A stretch of 37,918 nt of DNA from positions 1 to 37,918 of the forward strand of contig JAOAHY010000013.1 of NCBI GenBank assembly GCA_026414995.1, in the 5' to 3' direction. The stretch comes from Caldisericia bacterium. Its GTDB lineage: Bacteria > Caldisericota > Caldisericia > B22-G15. The notes under the pieces are model-generated. The model ran no database searches and was not told the origin of the DNA. It worked only from the letters and a program-made list of their open reading frames with translations. The first letter of the stretch is position 1; the number at the start of each line of letters is the position of its first letter. The position numbers and the translations under genes were made by a program. This document shows, piece by piece, positions 4,226 through 8,597 of the stretch.

Positions 4226-4289
4226 AACTTCTTTTACTTCATTTAGTTTCAAAAAATTAGAGATTCTGTAAATAAATTTTGTTCCATTG

Positions 4290-4295
4290 TATAAT
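4290..4295 (+). promoter_or_regulatory. -10 box of a leaderless promoter for the dnaB-like gene
   Basis: A perfect TATAAT at 4290-4295 lies 6 nt before the ATG at 4302. There is no purine-rich Shine-Dalgarno between them (the spacer is TTAAAT). Transcription normally starts about 7 nt after the -10, which would place the mRNA 5' end at or next to the A of the start codon. No good -35 is visible; TGTAAA at 4267-4272 is weak. Confidence 0.6.
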
Positions 4296-4301
4296 TTAAA
4301 T

Positions 4302-5840
4302 ATGAGTATTGAAATAGAAAAGAAAATTTTAAAAGGTTTTATAGTAGATAGATTCTCTATATCAAAATCTTTATCAGAAGGGTTTAAGGTTGAATATTTT
4401 GAAGATCCAAAAACAACAACTATTCTTAATGCAGTTTTAGATATTTATGAAGGAAGAGGAGAAATTGATTATATAGATTTTCAAACAGTTAGAAGGCATC
4501 TTGAAAAAAGAGGGGTTTTTGATGATGAAATAAAAAGAACTTTGTCGGAAATAGAAGATATAGAAACACCAGCTCTTGCTCTATTAATGTCTTACATAGA
4601 TATTTTAAGAATAAGAAATGGAGAAAGAAGATTAATAAATATTTCAAATGAGATAAAAGATTTTGTTGAAAGAAGAGGACCACACAAACTTGAAGATATT
4701 GCAACATTCGCTGTAACTATGGCAGAAGAACTTCAAAGAATAGCTCTTGAAAGATTACATAAAAAACTTGTACCTTCTGAAAATATAATTAAAAACATAG
4801 TTAGAGATGTTTTTGAAAAGAGAAAATACCATGGATTTTCTCTTGAACCATTTAACTCTTTAAACAAATCTCTTCTTGGCTTAAGACCAGGCTTTTATTA
4901 TGCACTTGCAGGTGCACCAAGAAGGGGAAAAACAAATTTCTTACTCCATCTTGCTGTAAATATAATAGCAAATGAAAGAGTGCCAGTTTTATATTATTCA
5001 TGGGAACAAACATCAAGAATTTTGAATTTAAGAATTCTTTCTCAAGAATCAAGATTAAATCCTGTAAAAATTATTTCAGGGGAGTTAAATGAAGAAGAGT
5101 TCAAAAGATTTGAAGATGCATATAAAAAACTTCAAGATATTTTTCCGTTTTTATATATTATTGAAGGAAGTAGTAGTGATACTTTAGAAAAAATAGAAGC
5201 ACATGCTTATAATATTATGCAGAGTCATAGATGTGAAACAGTTGTTATATTTCTTGATTATATACAAAAAATTCCTATTGAATCAAAAGGTTATGTTGTT
5301 TTAGAAGAAAAAGTTGATGAAGTTTCAGGTAAAATTGCTATGCTTTCACTTTCTCTTAAATCACCAATTGTTGCAATTTCTGCTCTTGATAAAGAAGGAT
5401 GCAAATTAGACGAAGAAGGAATTGAAAGACCTACAATGTTCCATTCAACTGGGGGTGGTGACATTGAATATGATTCTGATGTTGCAATGGTCTTAGTAAA
5501 AAATCATAAAGAGACGAATGAGTTAAAAGAAAAATTATTAAATCTTGTAAAAAATGGGCAACTTCTTCCAGAGGATATGCCAAATATAGATATAATTGAT
5601 CTTTATATAGATAAAAATAGAGATGCTCCTGAAGGAACTTCAAATGTTATTCAATATCTATTTTTTATTGATTCAAATAAATTTATTGAAATTGGATACA
5701 AAGATCCATCAGAGAAATATACTTATGCAAAAATAAGTGAAATTGTTGAGAGATTAAGAAAAGAAGGTTATTTAAAATTGATAACAAAAGAGGAGCAGAT
5801 AAAAGAAAAACCAAGATTTTCAGGTTTTGAACCTGTATAG
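4302..5840 (+). CDS. DnaB-like replicative helicase, divergent
   Basis: I place the start at ATG 4302, giving 512 residues; an in-frame TTG at 4287 lies within or upstream of the -10 box and is unlikely. The protein has an N-terminal helical region (about 1-170) and a RecA-fold ATPase domain. Walker A is A-G-A-P-R-R-G-K-T-N (about 203-212), Walker B is V-V-I-F-L-D-Y-I-Q (about 314-322), and I-D-K-N-R-D-A-P-E-G-T (about 435-445) corresponds to the K-x-R arginine-finger loop of DnaB. The usual S-Q-L-N-R segment is replaced by S-A-L-D-K-E. The protein therefore looks like a hexameric 5'-3' DNA helicase of the DnaB family, but an unusually divergent one. It could be the only replicative helicase, with the DciA-like protein in the dnaA cluster as loader, or a paralog. 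It stands alone upstream of serS. Confidence 0.75.
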   Translation: MSIEIEKKILKGFIVDRFSISKSLSEGFKVEYFEDPKTTTILNAVLDIYEGRGEIDYIDFQTVRRHLEKRGVFDDEIKRTLSEIEDIETPALALLMSYIDILRIRNGERRLINISNEIKDFVERRGPHKLEDIATFAVTMAEELQRIALERLHKKLVPSENIIKNIVRDVFEKRKYHGFSLEPFNSLNKSLLGLRPGFYYALAGAPRRGKTNFLLHLAVNIIANERVPVLYYSWEQTSRILNLRILSQESRLNPVKIISGELNEEEFKRFEDAYKKLQDIFPFLYIIEGSSSDTLEKIEAHAYNIMQSHRCETVVIFLDYIQKIPIESKGYVVLEEKVDEVSGKIAMLSLSLKSPIVAISALDKEGCKLDEEGIERPTMFHSTGGGDIEYDSDVAMVLVKNHKETNELKEKLLNLVKNGQLLPEDMPNIDIIDLYIDKNRDAPEGTSNVIQYLFFIDSNKFIEIGYKDPSEKYTYAKISEIVERLRKEGYLKLITKEEQIKEKPRFSGFEPV

Positions 5841-7180
<1,340 letters not shown>

Positions 7181-7189
7181 GAGGTAGTT

Positions 7190-7345
7190 ATGATTAAAAT
7201 AATTAAGAATAAACCTTTTTTAAGTAAAAAAAACTTTAATTGTAGAGAATGCGCAACTCCATGTAAATCTGCATGTAAAACATCAATGACAGTTGGTAAT
7301 CAAAATTGTGAGAGAGATAGAGAAGAAAAAAAATTTGTCTTCTAA
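7190..7345 (+). CDS. scfA: SCIFF ranthipeptide precursor (five-cysteine variant)
   Basis: This 51-residue ORF starts at ATG 7190 with a strong GGAGG 5 nt upstream (7181-7185), directly after serS. The cysteines are C18, C21, C25, C29 and C40, in the pattern C-R-E-C-A-T-P-C-K-S-A-C-K-T-S-M-T-V-G-N-Q. The core S-A-C-K-T-S-x-T-V-G-N-Q-x-C-E is the hallmark of the 'six cysteines in forty-five residues' peptide, and the next gene is its radical SAM/SPASM maturase. From family knowledge, the maturase installs a thioether between a core Cys and a Thr five residues on; both are present here (C29 and T34). The sixth family cysteine, between them, is Met33 in this sequence. The biological role of SCIFF is unsettled; a signalling role has been proposed. 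Confidence 0.88.
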   Translation: MIKIIKNKPFLSKKNFNCRECATPCKSACKTSMTVGNQNCERDREEKKFVF

Positions 7346-8597
7346 ACCTCCATTTTTTCATAAATTTTCTTTTTTAGACAGATTTTTTGTTTTTTTTCCT
7401 ATATCTGGAAGTTTAATTGAAATTGACGAAAAATTTTTTTTAAATTTAAATTATGATAGTGAAATAAAAGATCCCTTTTTTGAAGAAGAGAGAAAATTTT
7501 GGGAAAGCTTTGAATTGAGTTTTGATCCACCAAGTAACTTAAAATCTTTATGCCTTCTCATATCACAAACATGTAATATGAAATGTGATTACTGTTTTGT
7601 AAGTGAAGGTACTTATGGAGAAAAAGATAGTTTAATGAATGAAGAAATAAGTTTGAAAGCAGTTGATTTTTTAATTGAAAATTCAAAAACTAAAAATATA
7701 GAAATTGATTTTTTTGGTGGAGAACCTCTTTTAAATTGGATGGTCGTTAAAAAAACAATTGAGTATGGTAATAAAAAAGCTAAAGAAAGCGGGAAAATTT
7801 TAAGATTTTCTTTAACAACAAATGGGATTTTGCTCAATGAAGAGAAATTAAATTTTTTAAAAGAAAATTTTGTTAGTTTAATAATATCGCTTGATGGCCC
7901 TAAAGAGATAAATAATATACACAGAAGACTCAAAAATGGTTTAACTTCTTTCGATATAATTATTAAAAATTTAGAAAAATTAAAAGATTATGATGGTTAT
8001 TACATAAGAGGGACATTTACAAATAAAACTAAAAATATATTTAAAAGTGCAAAGTATTTTTATGAACAAGGTTATAAAAATATTTCTCTTGAACCTGTTA
8101 TTTTAGAAAAAGACAATTCTTTAAGTTTAAAGGAGAGCGATATAGAAGAAATTAAAATTGAATATGAGAAACTTGGAGAATTAATTTATAAAGAGAAATT
8201 AAAAGGAAAAATTTTAAATTTTTATCATTTCAATGTAGATTTATCAAATGGTCCCTGTCTTGGTAAAATGAATTTTGGTTGTGGTGCAGGAGTGGAGTAT
8301 TTAGCAGTTGATACAAAAGGAGATCTTTATCCTTGCCACTTTTTAAAAGAATTTGAAGAGTTTAAAATCGGGAATATATTTGATGGAATTGAGGAAAATA
8401 AGAGAAATTATTTTATTTTTTTAAATGATATTAATTCAAAAGAAAATTGTAAAAGTTGTTGGTCAAAATTTTTATGTGGTGGAGGTTGCATTGCTCATTC
8501 ATATTTCATAAACAAAAATCCTTTAAAAATACCAAAAGATTTTTGTGAACTTCAAAAGAAAAGATTAGAAATAGGACTTTTTTTAAATAGTATATAA
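7335..8597 (+). CDS. scfB: Radical SAM/SPASM thioether-forming SCIFF maturase
   Basis: The enzyme is expected to crosslink the SCIFF peptide through thioether bonds. The radical SAM motif C-N-M-K-C-D-Y-C (CX3CX2C) lies about residues 80-87 from the start used here, followed by the G-G-E-P motif (D-F-F-G-G-E-P-L). The C-terminal SPASM region has cysteines near 308, 317 and 334 and C-K-S-C-W-S-K-F-L-C-G-G-G-C near 371-386, enough for auxiliary 4Fe-4S clusters. The start is uncertain: in-frame TTG 7293, GTG 7308 and TTG 7335 are all possible and all overlap the end of scfA in another frame. I prefer TTG 7335 because the family-like segment (F-H-K-F ... S-G-x-L-I-E-I-D) begins soon after it. None has a strong Shine-Dalgarno, so translational coupling to scfA is likely. 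Confidence 0.9.
   Translation: MSSKPPFFHKFSFLDRFFVFFPISGSLIEIDEKFFLNLNYDSEIKDPFFEEERKFWESFELSFDPPSNLKSLCLLISQTCNMKCDYCFVSEGTYGEKDSLMNEEISLKAVDFLIENSKTKNIEIDFFGGEPLLNWMVVKKTIEYGNKKAKESGKILRFSLTTNGILLNEEKLNFLKENFVSLIISLDGPKEINNIHRRLKNGLTSFDIIIKNLEKLKDYDGYYIRGTFTNKTKNIFKSAKYFYEQGYKNISLEPVILEKDNSLSLKESDIEEIKIEYEKLGELIYKEKLKGKILNFYHFNVDLSNGPCLGKMNFGCGAGVEYLAVDTKGDLYPCHFLKEFEEFKIGNIFDGIEENKRNYFIFLNDINSKENCKSCWSKFLCGGGCIAHSYFINKNPLKIPKDFCELQKKRLEIGLFLNSI

Follow-up and report, generated by a model that had tools for sequence, protein, structure and literature searches.

A 51-residue SCIFF precursor peptide with five cysteines, encoded at 7190-7345 (+) of the 37,918-nucleotide contig analysed here (the window; contig 13 of a 1.27 Mb genome), and an overlapping maturase gene probably form a working SCIFF (ranthipeptide) pair in this Caldisericota bacterium, with a thioether from Cys29 to a threonine and no need for the fifth cysteine of the family, whose place is taken by Met33. 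The Met33 peptide itself holds little surprise for a specialist: sequence comparisons point to an ordinary variant of a known family, one of many such. Taken together, natural variants show how much each cysteine is needed: the first three and the last come ahead of the fourth, and the fourth far ahead of the fifth. Among the relatives we found a family of peptides devoid of the published donor cysteine. The function of SCIFF peptides is unsettled despite their presence in about 80% of sampled Bacillota (203 of 250 evenly drawn genomes), and the ring of the best-studied member is disputed, the acceptor being Thr37 or Thr34.

The precursor gene and its maturase

The open reading frame 7190-7345, read directly, translates as MIKIIKNKPFLSKKNFNCRECATPCKSACKTSMTVGNQNCERDREEKKFVF*. 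The product scores 51.0 bits with TIGR03973 (cut-off 50) and 51.8 bits with PF13165 (cut-off 27). A ribosome-binding site, AGGAGG, was read directly at 7179-7184 (+), where it overlaps the serS stop codon, and each of the four genus members has an AGGAGG ahead of its SCIFF gene. Cys18, Cys21 and Cys25 (codons 7241-7243, 7250-7252 and 7262-7264, spanning 7241-7264, +) are the family's first three cysteines, Cys29 (7274-7276, +) is the equivalent of the CteA thioether donor Cys32, and Cys40 (7307-7309, +) is the sixth cysteine. The fifth-cysteine position is occupied by Met33, encoded by ATG at 7286-7288 (+). These readings agree with the initial annotation, which had reported cysteines at 18, 21, 25, 29 and 40, one family cysteine replaced by Met33, and a core otherwise intact, with C29 and T34 kept as donor and acceptor; both candidate acceptors, Thr31 and Thr34, are in fact present. 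Six cysteines within about 45 residues are expected of a SCIFF peptide. The window peptide has five, and the count fails likewise in 8 of 147 Bacillota members scoring over the family cut-off, so that the six-cysteine count serves to name the family and is not a strict criterion. An AF2 model of the peptide, built from a 61-sequence alignment, had a pLDDT of 53, too low for use.

The maturase gene, 7308-8597 (+), starts with a GTG inside the SCIFF gene, giving a 38-nt overlap. This GTG falls within TGT-GA at the last SCIFF cysteine codon and is kept throughout the four-genome genus, unlike the TTG at 7335. The stretch 7308-7345 is read in two frames, one of which gives the SCIFF tail, and this overlap is conserved in the genus. 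Out of 76 families, TIGR03974 gave the best match to the maturase, with 391.3 bits, a score that does not reach the cut-off of 425 and covers model positions 93-448 only. Among the relatives tested, the maturases of families f4 and f5 are also below this cut-off, and a Caldisericum-type one is above it. PF04055 and PF13186 are both over their cut-offs. The closest PDB sequence is CteB (5wgg, E 2.8e-99), and the AF2 model (pLDDT 91.7) matches CteB (5why/5wgg) in Foldseek with a TM of 0.83 over its length, its N-terminal domain being short, with three strands and two helices. The window maturase keeps every position that is invariant across an alignment of 65 maturases in which it is included, the CxxxCxxC and SPASM cysteines among them. 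The three domains expected of such an enzyme (RRE, radical SAM and SPASM), along with their cluster cysteines, were all recognised, by AF2 and Foldseek, by the invariant cysteines and by Pfam.

The known systems nearest to this pair are the SCIFF, or six-cysteine ranthipeptides (TIGR03973, PF13165), such as CteA of Clostridium thermocellum and Tte1186a of Caldanaerobacter subterraneus. The window peptide shares with them the core C-x2-C-x3-C-x3-C-K-T-S-x-T-V-G-N-Q-x-C, the leader length and a maturase alongside. It differs from them by having five cysteines with Met as the fifth, Lys instead of Gln before SACKTS, an 11-residue charged tail ending in FVF (ERDREEKKFVF, 7310-7342, +), and the overlap with the maturase gene. 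The maturase resembles CteB/ScfB (TIGR03974; 5wgg, 5why) in its RRE-like N-terminal domain, radical SAM CxxxCxxC motif and SPASM cysteines, and differs by a shorter, divergent RRE region and by its score under the family cut-off. Freyrasin (PapA/PapB) and QhpD involve related radical SAM/SPASM enzymes making thioethers from Cys side chains; their families score 296 bits (NF047865) and 216 bits (TIGR03906) against the window maturase, both below their own cut-offs, and their substrates and ring spacing differ from those of the window system, the PapA spacing being Cys-x3-Asp (PMC8172795). The leader of the window peptide would bind the RRE domain of the overlapping maturase, which would then form the thioether. 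In favour of such a pairing, peptide and maturase are missing together in five Caldisericia genomes.

Two weaker SCIFF-like matches in the same genome were discarded. One, at C11:3531-3617, lies out of frame within an unrelated gene; the other, on C9 (18.5 bits), sits in a 370-aa frame, and matches at such a loose threshold also occurred in 9 of 14 control genomes. Just upstream of serS, at 4287-5840, lies a DnaB-like helicase gene (TIGR00665, 145.9 bits against a cut-off of 385), which by sequence looks like a divergent replicative or phage-like helicase.

Met33 and the fifth-cysteine position

The four genomes of the genus (G000-G003), all separate assemblies, share TGT AAA ACA TCA ATG at codons 29 to 33, which makes a sequencing error at the ATG very unlikely. 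From Cys18 to Gln38, the sole amino-acid difference among the four is Ala or Pro at position 22, while synonymous changes are many. In the four genus pairs with computable dS, dN/dS over codons 1-39 was 0.07-0.16. The ATG shared by four genomes and the low dN/dS establish Met33 as genuine and show purifying selection on the gene.

Relatives were found with the exact core pattern, and are named Caldisericota or Caldiserica bacterium, Caldisericum exile and Candidatus Cryosericum. Within Caldisericia, the fifth position is Met in the family of the window peptide (f1), Ser in f2, Val in f3, Asn in f4 and Cys in f5 and f6. Family f3, the Caldisericum-type, includes Caldisericum exile isolates and has Val in every SCIFF read; f2 corresponds to Cryosericum, and has Cys instead of Ser in one member, L041. 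A core scan of 84,980 genomes, in which the fifth codon had to have a second base other than G, hence no Cys, returned 44 contigs (14 Val, 13 Ser, 13 Leu, 2 Met, 1 Ile and 1 Ala), an undercount as the pattern requires V/I-G/A-N-Q after the Thr. Caldisericota accounted for 26 of them; the 18 others were labelled Bacillota/Firmicutes, Clostridia, Peptococcaceae, Desulfotomaculum, Desulfovirgula, Defluviitaleaceae, Oscillospiraceae and, for one, a 'Deltaproteobacteria' MAG.

The evenly drawn Bacillota sample, from which 147 SCIFF peptides were read, gave a measure of how each cysteine is kept. The first, second, third and sixth were present in 147 of 147, the fourth in 146 and the fifth in 139, with Leu (4) or Ile (4) in the remaining peptides. 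On a tree of 99 maturases, the fifth position underwent at least nine changes between Cys and non-Cys, and at least 13 residue changes, the count of nine being a parsimony minimum on one quick tree in which 29 of 96 inner branches are weakly supported. These repeated changes, together with 139 of 147 against 146 or 147 for the other cysteines, make the fifth cysteine dispensable to a far greater degree than any other. The initial suggestion that the variant tells which cysteines are needed was thus upheld by the survey, with the first three and the last as the likely load-bearing ones; the idea of Met33 as an exceptional variant was not, since every genome of the genus has Met, other SCIFF peptides show Val, Ser, Leu, Ile, Ala or Asn there, and at least nine changes between Cys and non-Cys are needed on the tree. 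It had also been anticipated that Met might prove common in close relatives, and this is true inside the genus, where all four genomes have it, and does not extend beyond, where other residues are found. No literature on radical SAM peptide systems of Caldisericum turned up in a search, although five-cysteine SCIFF peptides may have been noticed earlier.

The most likely reading of these data is that the fifth thiol is unneeded for the thioether or for peptide function, and would have been dropped many times, usually for a hydrophobic residue. Alternatively, the change from Cys to a hydrophobic residue (Met, Val, Leu or Ile) could have been selected because the mature product then differs, for instance in lacking a free thiol or a disulfide partner, or in how it binds metal. 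This would account for the hydrophobic nature of all 8 replacements in the Bacillota sample, and of those in other non-Caldisericota contigs, as well as for the maintenance of replacements within lineages (Met in the genus, Val in f3), which is unexpected under pure drift. However, Ser in Cryosericum beside Cys in L041 of the same genus looks like tolerance, and no maturase column was tied to the change, in a comparison that had no power as it comprised five supported independent pairs. We consider such a specialisation unlikely. That cysteine loss marks the early degeneration of a system whose peptide is no longer matured is highly improbable: five Caldisericia genomes lack both the SCIFF and the maturase gene, and the window maturase has a low family score and a short N-terminal domain, but low dN/dS, a near-identical core in four genomes, the retention of all catalytic and cluster cysteines and a full predicted CteB fold argue against it.

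Geometry of the thioether ring

Reviews (PMC8326336, PMC8172795) give the ring of Tte1186a and of CteA modified in vitro as Cys32-Thr37, with Thr37 as acceptor in Bruender 2016 and Grove 2017. They give Cys32-Thr34, with a bond to the gamma-carbon, for CteA co-expressed in E. coli (Hudson 2019, a later study). The equivalents in the window peptide are Cys29-Thr34 and Cys29-Thr31, respectively, Thr31 being encoded at 7280-7282 (+) and Thr34 at 7289-7291 (+).

The Thr31 position is Thr in all 147 Bacillota SCIFF peptides, and is invariant in alignment A1. The Thr34 position is Thr in 144 of the 147, Gly in two and Ser in one. The two peptides with Gly (KTSCG; L135:1501-1641 and L160:201-344) keep all six cysteines, and as Gly lacks a side-chain carbon to which the bond could be made, only the Thr31 position can serve in them. 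Such peptides are substrates able to decide between the two ring assignments. Conservation therefore favours Cys29-Thr31 as the likelier ring in the window peptide, which would place Met33 outside it. The initial annotation had placed the lost cysteine between the bond partners; this holds under the Cys32-Thr37 assignment only, and not under Cys32-Thr34. The invariance of Thr31 is no proof of an acceptor role, as Thr31 is also invariant in a lineage without a donor cysteine (f4, below).

The first three cysteines, present in every Caldisericota SCIFF read as in the Bacillota sample, are also invariant in alignment A1. The crystal structure of CteB shows the first core cysteine (Cys21, here Cys18) as a ligand of the open SPASM cluster (PMC8326336, PMC6231123), and the invariance of Cys18 is in line with this role.

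SCIFF peptides without the donor cysteine, and the Caldisericia tail

Family f4 of Caldisericia comprises five genomes (G007, G011, G015, G019 and G023) from two genera, with SCIFF genes at L042:2995-3153, L043, L044, L045 and L046:2077-2235. Their core reads CRECQTPCKSAAKTANT(I/T)(S/G)NQ(I/V)CE, in which the published donor Cys is replaced by Ala, and the fifth Cys by Asn. The maturase gene lies directly 3′ of the SCIFF gene (at L042, 3123-4445) and is complete, with all cluster cysteines. Strong purifying selection acts on both peptide and maturase: for the peptide, dN/dS was 0.05-0.10 in the more divergent pairs, and 0.25 in two pairs with two changes each; for the maturase, it was 0.07-0.09. 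No further SCIFF was found in the five genomes, and the neighbourhood of the f4 locus contains ABC transporters and housekeeping genes, with nothing accounting for donor loss. At 40-45 bits, these peptides fall under the TIGR03973 cut-off of 50 and are therefore missed by cut-off-based annotation.

A second case was found in Bacillota genome G132, with Ser at the donor position (QSASKTSCS; L166:189-329, −) and a canonical maturase scoring 760 bits (L253:2441-3850, −). A pattern search of 399 Bacillota genomes, with a pattern that omits residues with T-initial codons, detected no further donor loss.

Loss of the donor in f4 is a stronger and more informative natural variant than Met33. A tentative interpretation is that the f4 maturase must use another sulfur, from the first, second, third, last or an extra leader cysteine, or another chemistry. 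The conserved purpose of SCIFF would then lie not in the Cys32 thioether but in the first three and last cysteines, for instance as a scaffold for a metal cluster or for several rings. In any case, f4 offers a natural substrate-enzyme pair lacking the donor, which makes the question of what the SCIFF maturase is for experimentally approachable.

Finally, the tail of the window peptide is of a type found across Caldisericia. SCIFF peptides of this class (loci L003-L046) extend about 10-12 residues after the last cysteine, and end in RWIW, RFIW, KWIW, WMF, FVF, YIF or PWIL, an aromatic-aliphatic-aromatic or similar motif. The 147 Bacillota peptides end 1-8 residues past the last cysteine, nearly all 1-5, and the aromatic motif is absent from them; in L047-L049, three SCIFF peptides from the same phylum but not the class, the ends are short and non-aromatic. 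Conservation of the Caldisericia tail suggests a putative binding or processing signal.
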